Shown: positions 26,448 to 47,986 of the stretch, in pieces
Layout of the letters: every line of letters starts with the position of its first letter
Numbering within the stretch: position 1 is the first letter of the stretch
From: Psychroflexus lacisalsi
GTDB taxonomy: Bacteria; Bacteroidota; Bacteroidia; Flavobacteriales; Flavobacteriaceae
Direction of reading: 5' to 3'
DNA: 64,000 bases
NCBI RefSeq assembly: GCF_020164495.1
Contig: NZ_JAIQYZ010000001.1
Location: 1 to 64,000, forward strand
Notes under the pieces: model-generated
Seen by the model: the letters and a program-made list of their open reading frames with translations, nothing else
The model's database searches: none
Told to the model about the DNA's origin: nothing
Program-made: the position numbers and the translations under genes

Positions 26448-26583
26448 TTGATCTCATTTTGAATTTAGCCTAGTGCTCATGAAAGTCTTCTTTTAAGAGT
26501 CTTCATATTTAGCAGTAATTTCACTTTCAGTATCTTAATCTTCTCGTTCAACTTTGAGTGAATTCGTATCTATTTCAGCATTA

Positions 26584-26830
26584 TTCTGTCAACAAATTGT
26601 GCATTGCGGAGAAAAGGAATGACATATTCACTACCATTTCTTACTCTTCATCTTCTACAACCCAGGAGAACATTGCTGCATCTTCTTTGTTTATATAACC
26701 TGAGCAATGGATACTTTTTTTTGACTACATTATTGGTAATTTTTCCGTGTCTTAATGATGTGATGCTATGGCTTCATCTTTTCGTTTTCACAGGCCTTGA
26801 CTTACTATGATTACCGGATATAGCATTGTT
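26584..26830 (-). pseudogene. degraded copy of the NTF2-like gene
   Basis: Most of the 450-base gap upstream of RidA is a decayed copy of 23195-23360 of the NTF2-like gene. Matching blocks include CACTACCATTTC, TACTCT..ATCTTC, GCATCTT...GTTTAT and TTTTCA.AGGC. In the coding direction it has several stops, for example TAA where the intact copy has TAT before GAAATGGTAGTG. The remaining bases of the gap show nothing. Confidence 0.65.
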
Positions 26831-26898
26831 CTTGATGATTACATAATGCCAGTTGGACCATTCCAAGTCTTATTATTATTAGCCTTTTTATTTTAAAA

Positions 26899-28950: not shown

Positions 28951-29006
28951 CGTTTGTTGTTTTAAAAGTTTAAAGCAAAGTAGATAAGATTTGAAGAGCT
29001 GTCAAT

Positions 29007-29020
29007 CACATATTGATGTG
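29007..29020. promoter_or_regulatory. palindromic operator, site 1
   Basis: CACATATTGATGTG lies upstream of the minus-strand gene at 28225-28950, inside a stretch of about 55 bases that matches the region upstream of the sensor kinase (AGCTGTCAA just before, GTTA...AAATGTTAT after). The same ACAT-N4-ATGT core recurs at 29491 and 32562. Confidence 0.7.
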
Positions 29021-29243
29021 GTTGTTAATAAAATGTTATTATTAAAGTAATTTTTTATAAAAAGATGATTAAGCTTGATCGACTTATGTTATTCACAAAA
29101 AAATTAGATGATTTATAATTAAAAAAACTCTCAGCTGATAATTCCTTAGATTCAGAAATTATTAGCTCAGGCAAATAAACTAGTAAAGGTGAATGTGTAA
29201 TTTTATAAAACTCGAAATCTAGGTTTAGAATACCATTAAATGT

Positions 29244-29414
29244 TTACCAACCTGCATACGAACCATCAGTTGGCACTTGGTGGATAAGTACAAAATCATT
29301 GTACACATACATCCAAATTGGAACATTAAAAACCAAAAAGATGAAATACAGGATTAGACCAAACAAAGTAGATCACCATAGAATGCAAAACACATAATTT
29401 GTAAATGCTTTCAT
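29244..29414 (-). pseudogene. small membrane-protein gene with an in-frame TGA
   Basis: In the 600-base space between the divergent exported-protein and kinase genes, a minus-strand frame starts ATG AAA GCA at 29414 and reads MKAFTNYVFCILW. It hits TGA at 29373-29375, then continues in frame as STLFGLILYFIFLVFNVPIW and MYVYNDFVLIHQVPTDGSYAGW to a TAA. The second part is a transmembrane helix plus a soluble tail with good protein character. One nonsense base explains the break. The remaining space carries the two operators and the kinase promoter. Confidence 0.5.
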
Positions 29415-29490
29415 AAAATTGAGTTTTAATCGATTGTAATTCAGAACAATAGAATTAAAGCAATTAAAGTAAGATTCTAGCAGCTGTCAA

Positions 29491-29506
29491 CCACATATTG
29501 ATGTGG
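29491..29506. promoter_or_regulatory. palindromic operator, site 2
   Basis: CCACATATTGATGTGG, 6-bp perfect arms around ATTG, lies 16 bases upstream of the kinase's TAnnTTTG element, covering the -33 region. Flanks match site 1. A bound regulator here could activate or repress the kinase gene. Confidence 0.72.
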
Positions 29507-29522
29507 TGTTATAGAAATGTTA

Positions 29523-29530
29523 TACATTTG
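29523..29530 (+). promoter_or_regulatory. promoter -7 element of the sensor kinase
   Basis: TACATTTG is a perfect match to the Bacteroidota -7 consensus TAnnTTTG. It lies 20 bases before the TTG start, giving a short leader. Confidence 0.6.
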
Positions 29531-29550
29531 ATAATATAAATCTTACTACT

Positions 29551-32500
29551 TTGATAGTCAGGGCTTTATTTAGGGTTTTAGTTTCTTGCCTGTTTTGTCT
29601 TGCCATCCCAATTTCAGCTCAAAACTCCATCCAAATAGAAAAGCTTACGACAGATTCCGGATTAAATTTCAGACATGTCAATAGCATTGCTCAAGATGCA
29701 AAAGGATTTATGTGGTTTGGCACGAGTCAGGGCCTTGCAAAATATGATGGGAATACATTCAAGCTTTTTAATAGCGGTAAAAATAATCCCTACTTTATTC
29801 CCTTTGAAGAGATACTGAAATTAGAATATCAAAGTTCAGGTCATACACTTTGGTTTATTGCTAATCATAAATTGTTTGCTTTAAATCTAGAGACCGAAAA
29901 ATTGAAATCCATTGAAGGTCTTGAAAAAGCAATGAAGGGTGAAGTATTGGATATGGTCTTTGATAAAAAAAACAATTTGTGGATTGTTACAGACGATCCT
30001 AATCCCAAAAATAAAAAAGCACAGCACCTCATCAAATATGATGGAAAGACTTTTCGCTTAATTAAATCATTAGAGCGGGAAAGCACCGGATTTACTTCTG
30101 TTACGGTTTCAGGAACCAATATTATTTGTTGGACAACCATCAATCATGGGTTGACAGTCATCAATCAGGAAGGCCATGTTGTAAAAAGCAAAATTTTAGA
30201 TACTTACAACTGGTATGGATATACAATTCATTATGGGAAATCTTTCTTTAATGCTAAAAATCAACATTATTACTTTTCAGAAAGCCAGAAAGGTGTTGGG
30301 GTTTATCAAAATTTAGAATTTAGTCACCAACTCATAACACACGAAGGCGTTTTCTATAACGCAGTTGAAGATAAAGATGGTGGCATCTGGTTCACAGGAG
30401 AAAAAGAATTATTTTATTTGAATACTTCAGGAAATATCTTTGATTACACTTCTGAAATTGCAAAAATTATAGACTTTTCTCACATTAATCATATTTATGT
30501 AGACCTATCTAATCTTTTATGGTTGGGCACCAATAATGGACTTGTAAAGGTAATGTTGGAACCTCAAAATTTCGAAAAGCTAGCCCACAATAACGCAGAG
30601 GATTGGGGGCTAAGTTTTAGAAGTATTTTCCCTCTAAGGAGTGGAGATGTAGCTGCTATGTGCGAAACTGAAAATCAATTATACAGAATTAATCCTTCAG
30701 GCAGTGCAACTATATTGCCAATACCAAATGCTTACGAAAGATTAAAAGATGCACGTTTTTTTGTTTCAGATACGATATCTAATAAAGCGTATACAGTTAC
30801 TAATTACCTAATTGAAATCGATTTTAATACCAATAGATTAATTCTTCACGACGAATTTAGTCCATTTATAAATGAGACGAAACCGAATCCAATTATTCAA
30901 TTAAATGATGGTACATTATTGATGGGGTATATGTTGTCAAAATTAATTCGTGTTGATTCTGAAACCAAACTTTTTGCTCCTGTTTTTAAGACTAAACCTG
31001 AAGTTGATGATATCATCAAAACGCTTTTTCAGAGTAAAGCTGACCCCAACATCATCTGGGTTGGCACTAAAAGCCTTGGCGTATTAAAGCTCAATCTTAA
31101 AGGCAAAGTGGTAGAGAGATATGATATTCAATCCACTCCTTCCATCAGTAAAAACTCGGTGTTATCGCTTTTAGAATTCAAGGAATTTTTATTGGTAGGA
31201 ACTTTTGGCGGCGGCCTTGATGTATTGGATTTAAATCGAAACAGCATTCGCACTATAAATACTCAAAATGGGCTCTGTGACAACAATGTGGTTTCCATAT
31301 TGTCAGCAAATGATAAAGAAATTATAGCAGCCACCTACAACGGCTTAAGCCGAATCAATATGGCAACCAACGATATTCAAAATTACTTTGATAAAGATGG
31401 TATTTCACATAATGAATTCAATTACCCTTCGGCTTACAAGTCAACAAATGGAGTATTTTATTTTGGAGGCATGAATGGTATTACCAAATTCTCCATTGAA
31501 AATTTGACTAAAAAAAGAGTTTTACCAGCTTTAAATTTCACTCAATTTGAAATTTTTAATCAACGTAAAGATACGCTTTTGCAAATAACAAGATTAAGTG
31601 AAACGCCTGTTGAGTTGTCACCCTATGATATCAACCTCAAAATAGATTGGTCGGTTCCCGATTATTTCAATAATGATAATTACACTTATTATACTATGAT
31701 GGAAGGTTTTGAAAATAAATGGTTTTTTCAAGGCAAAGCGAACAGCATCCGTTATAACCAATTACCGGCCGGCGAATACAACCTAAAAGTTAAAGGGGTA
31801 GATATAAATGGTAATGAAAGCAAAGCGGGGCTGAGCATTCCCATCATCGTTAATCCTATTTTTTACAAAACCTGGTGGTTCATACTATTAATGGGCCTTT
31901 TTATAAGCGGAATTATTTATTCCATTTTTAAATATCGACTCAACCAGGCTTTGGCAATGGAGCGCTTGCGCACCAGAATATCAAGTGACTTACACGATGA
32001 CGTTGGCTCGATGTTGACCGGTTTGGCCATGCAAACTGAAATGCTGGAAATGCAAGCCACCAATCCTAATGAAAAAAGCAAACTTCATAAAATTACCAAC
32101 CTGAGCAGAAGTACCATTTCCCACATGAGGGATTTGGTATGGAGTATTGATAGTCGAAGAGACACTATTGGCAATTTGGTTGAGCGCATGCACGAGTTGG
32201 CAGAAGAGCTTCTGCTACCAGCAGAGATTTCTTATCAAATAGATGTGGATGATCTTAATCTGCAAAAAAAGATAAATTTTAACTGCCGTAGGAATTTATA
32301 TCTTATCTATAAAGAAGCCATCAACAATCTTATTAAACATTCTGACGCTAATTTTGTTAATGTAAGGCTTATCAACAATAAAGGGGTTTGTGAATTCAGC
32401 ATCAAAGATAATGGCAGTACAAAACCATTACATCACGTTTCAGGATTAGGTTTAGCCAATATGAAAATGAGAGCAGAAAACATCAATGCCAATTTGAAGT

Positions 32501-32553
32501 TTGATTTAGAAAATGGTTTTGGAATTCGCATTTTAATACCTAATGTGACATAA
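29551..32553 (+). CDS. sensor histidine kinase with an exported propeller domain
   Basis: 1000 residues with a TTG start. Signal peptide (1-23), then about 620 residues of beta-propeller repeats of the two-component-regulator type (FMWFGTSQGLAKYDGNTF, LWLGTNNGLVKV and similar). A Y_Y_Y-type domain follows (FENKWFFQG...YNLKVKGVDINGNES), then one transmembrane helix at about 772-792. The cytoplasmic part has a HisKA_3 dimerisation helix with phospho-accepting His815 in SDLHDDVGSM. The ATPase domain (about 885-1000) has EAINNLIKHS, IKDNGS and GLGLANM. It senses a periplasmic signal and phosphorylates the LuxR-type regulator encoded 72 bases downstream. Such kinases often sense polysaccharide fragments, but no polysaccharide-degradation genes are nearby. 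Confidence 0.93.
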   Translation: MIVRALFRVLVSCLFCLAIPISAQNSIQIEKLTTDSGLNFRHVNSIAQDAKGFMWFGTSQGLAKYDGNTFKLFNSGKNNPYFIPFEEILKLEYQSSGHTLWFIANHKLFALNLETEKLKSIEGLEKAMKGEVLDMVFDKKNNLWIVTDDPNPKNKKAQHLIKYDGKTFRLIKSLERESTGFTSVTVSGTNIICWTTINHGLTVINQEGHVVKSKILDTYNWYGYTIHYGKSFFNAKNQHYYFSESQKGVGVYQNLEFSHQLITHEGVFYNAVEDKDGGIWFTGEKELFYLNTSGNIFDYTSEIAKIIDFSHINHIYVDLSNLLWLGTNNGLVKVMLEPQNFEKLAHNNAEDWGLSFRSIFPLRSGDVAAMCETENQLYRINPSGSATILPIPNAYERLKDARFFVSDTISNKAYTVTNYLIEIDFNTNRLILHDEFSPFINETKPNPIIQLNDGTLLMGYMLSKLIRVDSETKLFAPVFKTKPEVDDIIKTLFQSKADPNIIWVGTKSLGVLKLNLKGKVVERYDIQSTPSISKNSVLSLLEFKEFLLVGTFGGGLDVLDLNRNSIRTINTQNGLCDNNVVSILSANDKEIIAATYNGLSRINMATNDIQNYFDKDGISHNEFNYPSAYKSTNGVFYFGGMNGITKFSIENLTKKRVLPALNFTQFEIFNQRKDTLLQITRLSETPVELSPYDINLKIDWSVPDYFNNDNYTYYTMMEGFENKWFFQGKANSIRYNQLPAGEYNLKVKGVDINGNESKAGLSIPIIVNPIFYKTWWFILLMGLFISGIIYSIFKYRLNQALAMERLRTRISSDLHDDVGSMLTGLAMQTEMLEMQATNPNEKSKLHKITNLSRSTISHMRDLVWSIDSRRDTIGNLVERMHELAEELLLPAEISYQIDVDDLNLQKKINFNCRRNLYLIYKEAINNLIKHSDANFVNVRLINNKGVCEFSIKDNGSTKPLHHVSGLGLANMKMRAENINANLKFDLENGFGIRILIPNVT

Positions 32554-32561
32554 ACAAAATA

Positions 32562-32575
32562 ACATGTTCATGTGG
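32562..32575. promoter_or_regulatory. palindromic operator, site 3
   Basis: ACATGTTCATGTGG, with the ACAT-N4-ATGT spacing and the outer GG of site 2, lies in the 72-base gap between kinase and response regulator genes, about 50 bases before the latter's start. A second small hairpin, AGATTT/AAATCT (32580-32596), follows. Confidence 0.55.
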
Positions 32576-32625
32576 TGGCAGATTTACTTTAAATCTATAA
32601 CTTAATCCCTATAAAAAAGGAAAAG

Positions 32626-33255
32626 TTGCAAAACGAAATTAACATAATCATTGTTGAAGATGATCCTGCGGTTTTAGATAGTTTAGTGACTTTTTTTGGG
32701 TTACATCAATCTGTTCAGGTTTTGAAAACATTTGGAAGCACTGAAGATTTTTCAGGCTGGCTTAAAGATGAAATTAAAACCGAATTTATTTTACTTCTTG
32801 ACATTCAACTTCCTGGTAAAAGCGGTGTGGAAGCATTGCCAGAAATTAAAATACTGAAGCCCGATCTAGACGTGATCATCCTTACCACTTTTGAAGAAAC
32901 CGACATGATTTTTAAAGCTCTAAGTGCCGGCGCTTGCTCTTATGTTTCCAAACGCAGTTCACTAGATAAAATAATAGAGGCGGTTGAGGTAGTTGCTGAT
33001 GGTGGCTCGTATATGTCACCAGCCATCGCCAGAAAAATTGCTGATTTTTATGCTCCCAAAAAACTTCATCAGCTTACTAAAAGACAATTGGATATTGTGA
33101 ACGGCATTGTCAACGGTAGAAGTTATAAAATGATTGCTTCAGATTTGTTTATTTCCCTGGATACTGTAAGGAGTCACATTAAGAATATTTATAACACCTT
33201 AGAAATAAATTCTAAAGCCGAATTGATCAGGAAATCTTATGATAAAGAATTATAG
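32626..33255 (+). CDS. NarL/FixJ-family response regulator
   Basis: 209 residues with a TTG start. The receiver domain (5-125) has the acidic pocket E11-D12-D13, phospho-accepting Asp59 in LLLDIQLPG, Thr87 in ILTTFEE and Lys109 in YVSKR. The LuxR-type DNA-binding domain is at about 145-205 (LTKRQLDIVNGIVNGRSYKMIASDLFISLDTVRSHIKNIYNTL). It is the partner of the upstream kinase and the natural candidate to bind the three ACAT-N4-ATGT palindromes, since NarL/FixJ dimers bind short inverted repeats. Confidence 0.93.
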   Translation: MQNEINIIIVEDDPAVLDSLVTFFGLHQSVQVLKTFGSTEDFSGWLKDEIKTEFILLLDIQLPGKSGVEALPEIKILKPDLDVIILTTFEETDMIFKALSAGACSYVSKRSSLDKIIEAVEVVADGGSYMSPAIARKIADFYAPKKLHQLTKRQLDIVNGIVNGRSYKMIASDLFISLDTVRSHIKNIYNTLEINSKAELIRKSYDKEL

Positions 33256-46897: not shown

Positions 46898-47986
46898 ATG
46901 ACAAGAAACGACTGGACCAAGGAAGAGATTTTAGAAATTTACAATAAGCCTTTAATGGAGTTGCTTTACGAAGCAGCTACTGTGCATAGAATACATCATG
47001 ATCCCAACAAAGTACAAGTGTCTACTTTGTTGTCTATAAAAACAGGAGGTTGCCCGGAAGACTGTGGCTATTGTCCACAAGCGGCCCGTTACCACACCGA
47101 TATTGAAGGAAACGACCTGATGAGCGTTTCGCAGGTAAAAGCGCAAGCTTTGAGAGCAAAATCCTCTGGAAGTTCCAGAGTGTGCATGGGTGCTGCCTGG
47201 AGAAATGTAAAAGATGGAGAGGAGTTCGACAACGTTTTGGAAATGGTAAGAACCATCAACAAATTGGATATGGAAGTTTGCTGTACGTTGGGTATGGTAA
47301 CAGAAAATCAAGCACAACGTTTGGCGGAAGCTGGACTTTACGCCTATAATCACAATTTAGATTCTTCAGAAGAATACTATAAAGAAGTCATTTCTACCAG
47401 AGGTTACCAGGATAGATTGGATACGATTGGAAATGTAAGAAAAAGTAATGTGACCGTTTGTAGCGGTGGAATTATTGGTATGGGCGAATCTTTGGAAGAT
47501 AGAGCAGGGATGTTGGTGGCGCTAGCTACCTTAAACCCTCAACCAGAATCTACACCGATTAACGCCTTGGTTCCTGTAGAAGGAACACCGCTGGAAGAGC
47601 AGCAAAAAGTATCTATCTGGGAAATGCTGCGAATGGTAGCCACCACTAGAATTGTAATGCCAGAAACTCAGGTAAGACTTTCTGCAGGTAGAACCGATAT
47701 GAGTAGAGAAGGCCAGGCGATGTGTTTCTTTGCTGGTGCGAATTCTATTTTTGCTGGAGATAAATTGTTGACCACACCAAACCCTGATGTGAACGAAGAC
47801 ATGGAAATGTTTAAGCTCTTAGGACTTGAGCCACAAAAACCTTTCGAGAAAAAATCTCAGCCTCAATCGGTTTCAGCCGAAGAATCTCAATACAAGCCTC
47901 TAGGTGAAAAACCAAAATGGACCAGACCTGGACATACCATAGAACGTAATGTTGAGGCAAAACAAAAAGCTAAGACAAAAGCCTAG
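46898..47986 (+). CDS. bioB: biotin synthase
   Basis: 362 residues; inserts sulfur into dethiobiotin to form biotin, using two iron-sulfur clusters and S-adenosylmethionine. The radical-SAM CxxxCxxC is Cys52, Cys56 and Cys59 in GGCPEDCGYCPQAARYHT. Further markers are SSGSSRVCMGAAWRN, YNHNLDSSEEYYKEVISTR, CSGGIIGMGE and the auxiliary-cluster Arg in IVMPETQVRLSAGR. The C-terminus is extended by about 30 residues rich in K, E and Q. A strong terminator follows. Confidence 0.97.
   Translation: MTRNDWTKEEILEIYNKPLMELLYEAATVHRIHHDPNKVQVSTLLSIKTGGCPEDCGYCPQAARYHTDIEGNDLMSVSQVKAQALRAKSSGSSRVCMGAAWRNVKDGEEFDNVLEMVRTINKLDMEVCCTLGMVTENQAQRLAEAGLYAYNHNLDSSEEYYKEVISTRGYQDRLDTIGNVRKSNVTVCSGGIIGMGESLEDRAGMLVALATLNPQPESTPINALVPVEGTPLEEQQKVSIWEMLRMVATTRIVMPETQVRLSAGRTDMSREGQAMCFFAGANSIFAGDKLLTTPNPDVNEDMEMFKLLGLEPQKPFEKKSQPQSVSAEESQYKPLGEKPKWTRPGHTIERNVEAKQKAKTKA

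Follow-up and report, generated by a model that had tools for sequence, protein, structure and literature searches.

Two-component systems of the NarL/FixJ family such as NarX–NarL and UhpB–UhpA pair a kinase carrying HisKA_3 and HATPase domains with a regulator made up of a receiver and a GerE domain, and in this family operators are commonly short palindromes and autoregulation is frequent. In the hybrid two-component systems (HTCS) of Bacteroides, a sensor of Reg_prop and Y_Y_Y domains is instead joined in a single polypeptide to kinase, receiver and an AraC-type output. A locus with likenesses to both was analysed in the first 64,000 nucleotides (nt) of contig NZ_JAIQYZ010000001.1 of Psychroflexus lacisalsi (RefSeq assembly GCF_020164495.1), referred to hereafter as the window. 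It comprises genes for a sensor histidine kinase, a response regulator (RR) and a secreted protein designated P0001, together with three ACAT-N4-ATGT palindromes which, on the comparisons set out below, are very probably operators of the RR encoded at 32626–33255, through which it would activate its targets and control its own system.

The domains of a NarL/FixJ-type two-component system were found in the two proteins, with HisKA_3 at 5.4e-12 and HATPase_c at 2.9e-4, the latter below its gathering score. The kinase contains the motif SDLHDDVGS, and in an alignment of RR sequences D12, D13 and D59 were nearly invariant and K109 invariant; we take these to be the phosphorylation residues. Partial NCBIfam matches linked the kinase to UhpB, NarX and NarQ and the RR to MctR, UhpA and NarL, at scores well short of every equivalog cut-off listed (UhpB 65.5 against 408; UhpA 94.2 against 258; NarL 77 against 250). 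Unlike NarXL and UhpBA, the system has a large extracellular propeller sensor and flavobacterial promoter geometry, and to our knowledge its operator sequence also differs from theirs. The Reg_prop and Y_Y_Y sensor is shared with the Bacteroides HTCS; here, however, the regulator is a protein of its own, with a GerE output in place of AraC, a domain search of the kinase giving no receiver or helix-turn-helix match. None of the literature matches listed was, by its title, a study of this system. The kind of system is known, and its operator, regulon, geometry and sensor exchange appear to be undescribed among those matches; for non-hybrid flavobacterial kinases of the Reg_prop propeller type we know of no described operator.

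A first-pass annotation, made from the window alone, had reported the three palindromes, and all were found at the positions it gave: CACATATTGATGTG at 29007–29020, CCACATATTGATGTGG at 29491–29506 and ACATGTTCATGTGG at 32562–32575. Its gene positions were also correct, the secreted-protein gene lying on the minus strand (Table 1). ACAT-N4-ATGT occurred four times in the window against a mean of 1.27 in shuffled sequences, of which 1 in 100 reached four; the fourth occurrence, at 47799, is off the locus. The longer form CCACATN4ATGTGG, with up to two mismatches, was found at four places in the window, which is not above chance (13 of 100 shuffles reached four). Genome frequency had been proposed as a check, and the palindrome proved rare: in the 3,036,088 bases of the genome (53 contigs) CACAT-N4-ATGTG is present at three places, two of them at this locus and the third (932736) within an open reading frame (ORF). 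Against the 20-base consensus AAYCACATN4ATGTGRTT, which was derived partly from the window sites themselves, these sites rank first, second and joint third genome-wide. Seven other places tie with operator 3 at two mismatches, all in or overlapping ORFs, and a broad regulon in this genome was therefore rejected. At up to three mismatches the consensus matched 91 places and its reversed control 55, so that weak matches are common and of little meaning. Occurrences of ACATCATCATGT within kinase genes were set aside as a coding coincidence (codons of LHDD).

Table 1. Features of the locus (window positions) and related proteins elsewhere (L codes denote loci compared)
Feature	Position	Strand	Remarks
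P0005, small protein, 139 amino acids	26899–27318	−	Signal-peptide-like start; homologs (34–36%) at the same locus in L031 and L034
P0002, second exported tandem ferredoxin-like protein, 252 amino acids	27325–28083	−	AlphaFold2 pLDDT 87.5
P0001, secreted protein, 241 amino acids	28225–28950	−	Signal-peptide-like start (by eye); tandem dimeric alpha/beta-barrel type by its model
53-nt direct repeat, copy 1	28970–29022		Contains operator 1 and target-side promoter
−7-type box of secreted-protein gene	28975–28982	−	TACTTTGC; starts 21 nt past operator 1
Operator 1	29004–29023		AATCACAT-ATTG-ATGTGGTT (plus-strand reading); upstream of secreted-protein gene; 0 mismatches to consensus, best site of the genome
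53-nt direct repeat, copy 2	29455–29507		Contains operator 2 and minus-strand target-type promoter, box shifted by one
Operator 2	29489–29508		AACCACAT-ATTG-ATGTGGTG; upstream of kinase; 1 mismatch, second-best site of the genome
Consensus −7 box of kinase	29523–29530	+	TACATTTG; 14 nt past operator 2
Sensor histidine kinase	29551–32553	+	Reg_prop propeller, Y_Y_Y, one membrane span (by eye), HisKA_3, HATPase_c
Operator 3	32558–32577		AATAACAT-GTTC-ATGTGGTG; kinase–RR gap; 2 mismatches, weakest of the three
NarL/FixJ-type RR	32626–33255	+	Response_reg 4.7e-19, GerE 4.8e-14
Propeller-type proteins with AraC-like end, other Bacteroidota	L105:5642-9784; L100:5712-9848; L136:5569-9708; L133:5335-9726; L147:4917-9341

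The locus was compared across 60 genomes (G codes), its own included, of which 27 were from Psychroflexus. Clear orthologs of the secreted protein were identified in seven other Psychroflexus genomes and in one of another genus, besides two weak matches at 3e-4, and RR orthologs (E up to 1e-40) in precisely those seven Psychroflexus genomes. In five of them the genes adjoin one another; in P. gondwanensis (G021) and in G025 the secreted gene lies apart from kinase and RR. In all seven the palindrome stands ahead of the secreted gene, ahead of the kinase and in the kinase–RR gap, so that the conservation before the same genes which the first-pass annotation had suggested looking for was found, including the two genomes with an unlinked target. 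Where kinase and secreted gene lie close together and divergent (G004, G013 and G024), a single palindrome serves both positions. The 27 genomes contain 13 perfect matches to the consensus, every one at genes of this system and all confined to the eight RR-carrying genomes (0 in the remaining 19). Sixteen more sites have one mismatch, five at system genes and 11 elsewhere; seven of the latter were attributed to chance, six being within ORFs and one intergenic in G008, which has no RR, and lacking a box. Winogradskyella aurantiaca (G035, locus L110) has the secreted gene, no RR at 1e-40, and no ACAT-N4-ATGT in its 12-kb locus.

Beside the operators, flavobacterial promoter elements could be read at fixed distances. 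By the −7 box numbering (T−12 to G−5) of PMC6847099, with the place of the box also as in PMC9723704, the operator centre lies at about −43.5 from the predicted start at targets and, on the kinase side, between −36.5 and −40.5; in the window the predicted starts are at about 28970 (minus strand) and 29535 (plus strand). Read towards the target, the site is mostly AACCACAT-N4-ATGTGATTGAC. Of the 11 secreted genes examined in RR-carrying genomes, that of the window among them, 10 had a close site, with TAnnTT at offset 21 in 10/10. Kinase sites read away from the kinase had TAnnTT at the same offset in 14 of 15, the exception being the window copy; RR sites had it in 11 of 19, and at offset 20 in five more. 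Sites shared by a kinase and a secreted gene were tallied under the secreted gene, and the tallies exclude the kinase site of G257 and the gap site of Planktosalinus, both with the box at 21. The 21-nt rule was first noticed in the initial genomes; the five fetched last (G137, G344, G224, G397 and G332) came afterwards and showed offset 21 at 5/5 kinase sites and 20–21 at 5/5 RR sites. A search of the P. lacisalsi genome for the operator-plus-box pattern with up to two mismatches returned the two promoter copies of this locus and one place within an ORF (869647, two mismatches). The motif TAnnTTTG at −12 to −5 marks the sigma-A type of Bacteroidetes promoter. On the kinase-ward side a perfect TAnnTTTG was found at offsets 14–18 in 11 of 14 cases; on target sides it was absent from the first 60 nt (0/24), which suits promoters needing an activator.

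Class-II activator sites of the CRP/FNR type are centred at −41.5. The target sites described here likewise abut the −33/−35 region at fixed spacing, with a different regulator family and a centre near −43.5 by the flavobacterial −7 numbering, and from this fixed, class-II-like position the RR is most likely an activator of the secreted gene. Eight of the ten secreted-gene boxes (for example, TACTTTGC, TATATTGC and TAAATTGC) fit, at the same position, the SM5 promoter motif TAnnTTGY of Flavobacterium psychrophilum (PMC9723704). Since two boxes read TACTTTTC and many other target boxes end in TTAG, an SM5-type sigma factor is not established. The same operator and RR might alternatively repress, or only tune, the kinase and the targets, with the overlap of the −33 region blocking RNA polymerase. 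At the kinase itself this would suit the site, whose centre at about −36 to −41 overlaps the −33 region of a consensus promoter; the fixed spacing at target sides and their want of TAnnTTTG are, however, as for activator-dependent promoters, and we consider repression unlikely overall.

The association of site and regulator was followed beyond the genus in 397 Flavobacteriaceae genomes, using a consensus set beforehand; as background, 1722 overlapping 200-nt stretches taken from 14 of the loci gave two matches. An RR ortholog at 1e-60 was found in 15 genomes, and in 13 of these it adjoins a propeller kinase, which in G013 is split into two open pieces. The kinase-upstream site was present in all 13 and the gap site in 12 within two mismatches, that of Planktosalinus having three. 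In the two exceptions, G125 and G243, the kinase matches at its end only and the full pair of sites is lacking, G125 still having a gap site with two mismatches; the recognition helix of their regulators (L239:8316-8954 and L240:10678-11319) reads TVRDHIKK, against TVR(S/T)HIKN elsewhere, a possible natural specificity contrast. The perfect 20-mer occurred in 15 of the 397 genomes, in eight of them at a kinase/RR pair. The seven away from a pair (G127, G176, G191, G243, G332, G080 and G355) were taken as chance because the reversed control matches 17 genomes; G332 and G243 do have an RR ortholog at another place, some 9 kb away in the case of G243. With the site tracking the RR across this set, the earlier proposal that the RR acts at all three sites in a feedback circuit gains comparative support. 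Some frames were apparently broken in this material, namely the split kinases of G013 and G026 (L032 and L035), one in-frame stop codon in G026 where its secreted gene was aligned, and a shortened regulator match in G442 (L178); these appear to reflect decay or assembly error.

Starting from the secreted family, 99 loci were confirmed, of which the best 80 were used. A perfect core within 450 nt upstream was found in seven. Six have adjacent RR and kinase, including Polaribacter sp. IC066 and Planktosalinus lacus; the other is P. gondwanensis, in which the RR is elsewhere. Paucihalobacter ruber (L087) is a seventh locus with an adjacent RR and has sites beside the kinase, past the 450-nt limit, and in the gap. 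The other 72 loci showed no core with up to one mismatch. A DNA-binding protein other than the neighbouring RR might use the palindromes, and the half-site TCACA/TGTGA does recall CRP-type half-sites, though in everted order. We regard this as quite improbable, as perfect sites in Psychroflexus occur with the RR and never without it, also at an unlinked target gene, and in the family the pair of sites goes with the pair of RR and propeller kinase.

Further genes may belong to the regulon. Behind the site lies the gene for the secreted tandem-barrel protein, and a SnoaL-type lipoprotein gene (Pfam) often follows downstream; a SnoaL match was found within 5 kb in 53 of the 80 secreted-family loci. 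In P. gondwanensis a one-mismatch operator with a 21-nt box (C9:22264; L064:4265-4284) precedes a gene for a 725-residue S9-type peptidase, named by likeness. L235 has a gene similar to this one in the neighbourhood of its kinase. In Paucihalobacter ruber another three perfect operators, each with the 21-nt box (L183:8208, L183:9198 and L185:2783), precede a gene adjoining an MBOAT acyltransferase, a DinB-like protein gene and an Acyl_transf_3 gene. One-mismatch sites in G004 (C22), G024 (C31) and G013 (C1) precede the gene for one exported-type protein of 153 residues (L241:2050, L242:2050 and L243:2049), close orthologs of which (83–91% to the G024 copy) are confined to these three of the 27 Psychroflexus genomes. 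All three carry the RR; in G023, which does not, a 35% relative lacks the site. This gene is likely a further target with another spacing, perhaps under another mode of control. The 21-nt box accompanied four of the seven such extra sites, and the theme of the regulon, as read from these genes, is exported or envelope chemistry.

Several observations weigh against this account of the RR and its sites. The sites of the 153-residue protein gene are about 90 nt upstream and have no box at 21, the nearest TAnnTT in the gene direction being at 58–59 (in G013 also at offset 2). RR sites fit an offset of 20–21 in 16 of 19 cases and not in all, and the gap site of the window is weak (two mismatches) with a poor box. 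The only site of the Paucihalobacter secreted gene is 487 nt upstream. A second secreted-gene copy of Planktosalinus lacus (L091:10001-10723), followed by P0002 and SnoaL homologs, is without a site; an RR-carrying genome can therefore hold an unmarked copy. The presence of an RR elsewhere in the genome was checked for 2 of the 72 operator-less loci, with none at 1e-40 in W. aurantiaca and one present in Planktosalinus lacus. The recognition-helix contrast is confounded, the regulators of G125 and G243 being also the most distant orthologs, and the promoters are related by descent, so that the counts are not independent events.

The flank of about 55 bases said to be common to the first two sites was recovered as a direct repeat whose copies are 81% identical; the third site is not part of this repeat. 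Copy 2 is, as its promoters read, a divergent operator with the kinase on one side and a target-type promoter on the other, so that the site placed before the kinase in the first-pass annotation does precede it and in addition faces a second promoter on the opposite strand. No intact gene follows that promoter in the three minus-strand frames of 29023–29488. The matching promoter elsewhere precedes an ORF of 151 residues (G014), an alpha/beta hydrolase gene (G021) and an epimerase gene (G025; the name rests on likeness to a Pfam-matched homolog), and a target gene probably once lay between the two operators and was decayed or lost in P. lacisalsi. A relic recognisable by likeness to the G014 and G026 inserts was sought at 29023–29454; the comparison gave only short chance matches and this candidate was dropped. 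The repeat could also mean that the first two sites are alike merely through duplication of a promoter segment, with no common regulator. The palindrome is, however, kept while flanks diverge across species, and is kept at unlinked loci and in other genera; this explanation is highly improbable, and the duplication is real but of a regulated promoter. A role of the palindromes at the RNA level, as hairpins or terminators, is scarcely credible: the eight-base arms around a four-base loop could pair and operator 3 does lie between two co-directional genes, but in 10 of 10 secreted-gene sites C3 stands opposite A18, a conserved mismatch between the arms, and there the site is upstream of the predicted transcription start.

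Control by the RR is the reading we retain; the placement of the sites, their co-occurrence with the RR and the promoter geometry come from sequence comparison. On this basis we infer that a periplasmic signal would be sensed by the propeller kinase, which would phosphorylate the RR, and that an RR dimer would bind AAYCACAT-N4-ATGTGRTT. At most target promoters the bound site would end beside the −33 region, exactly 21 nt ahead of an imperfect −7 box, and the RR would most likely switch on the secreted tandem-barrel protein, with read-through perhaps to the next two genes. Through the same operator at the kinase promoter and in the kinase–RR gap, the system would control its own level.

The P0001 gene, whose ATG begins 53 nt beyond the end of operator 1, matched 0 Pfam and 0 NCBIfam families, in keeping with the earlier description of its product as without clear family; for the fold this description did not hold. 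An AlphaFold2 model (pLDDT 80.6, eight sequences) is tandem ferredoxin-like, and Foldseek matched it to dimeric alpha/beta barrels, the best being 2pgc (E 1.5e-9; TM 0.55 by query and 0.63 by target). On this model P0001 is a tandem dimeric alpha/beta barrel, sharing the tandem beta-alpha-beta-beta-alpha-beta fold of 2pgc, 3mcs, 3f44 and coproheme decarboxylases; unlike these it is exported and has no Pfam match, and identity was 6–14% among the 50 matches listed. P0002 is of similar fold by its model; its sequence gave no BLAST match of note to P0001 (E 0.032) and a weak one by profile comparison (probability 52.6). In G013 and G024 a gap of 12 nt separates its ortholog from the secreted gene before it, against 141 nt in the window. 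P0002 and P0005 are possibly co-transcribed with P0001, and these genes at 26.9–28.1 kb would then perhaps be controlled by read-through from the secreted-gene promoter. Beyond the cluster, about 450 bases (26448–26898) contain no ORF of 80 amino acids, possibly a decayed gene.

The sensors of the kinases were of two main types, 34–42% identical. Between G024 and G013 the transmitter is 90% identical, against 20–51% for the sensor (60-residue windows, to about residue 760), over which G024 is 63–87% identical to G021. Trees of 19 kinases grouped the sensors of G004 and G024 with those of G021 and G025 (100/100) and their transmitters with that of G013 (99/99), nested in the clade of G000, G014, Planktosalinus and Paucihalobacter (100/98). 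The regulators go with the transmitters. By these comparisons (L034:1201-4275 and L031:3262-6294 against L032:3072-5156 and L037:3491-6568), the G004 and G024 kinases are chimeras that join one lineage's sensor to another's transmitter, with RR and operator unchanged. In other Bacteroidota a propeller-type protein of 1378–1474 residues, with a kinase match (tblastn) and an AraC-like end (by eye), is encoded immediately before homologs of the secreted gene. A kinase-like match was found within 5 kb in 22 of the 80 secreted-family loci, seven being the kinase of this system.

The operator, the regulator and the promoter geometry of this system are predictable to the base, so that a reporter on the promoter at 28.95–29.03 kb would open the signal to screening. 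That sensors have been exchanged in nature suggests that a single regulator can serve several of them. Tentatively, since we put it at slightly less than an even chance, the system may represent a module of the Flavobacteriaceae whose operator, regulator and promoter spacing are constant and whose propeller sensor is swapped between lineages by recombination, so that one programme of exported enzymes (tandem-barrel proteins, SnoaL lipoproteins, epimerase, S9 peptidase and acyltransferases) would be re-wired to new signals, the same secreted gene lying in other Bacteroidota behind hybrid propeller regulators.

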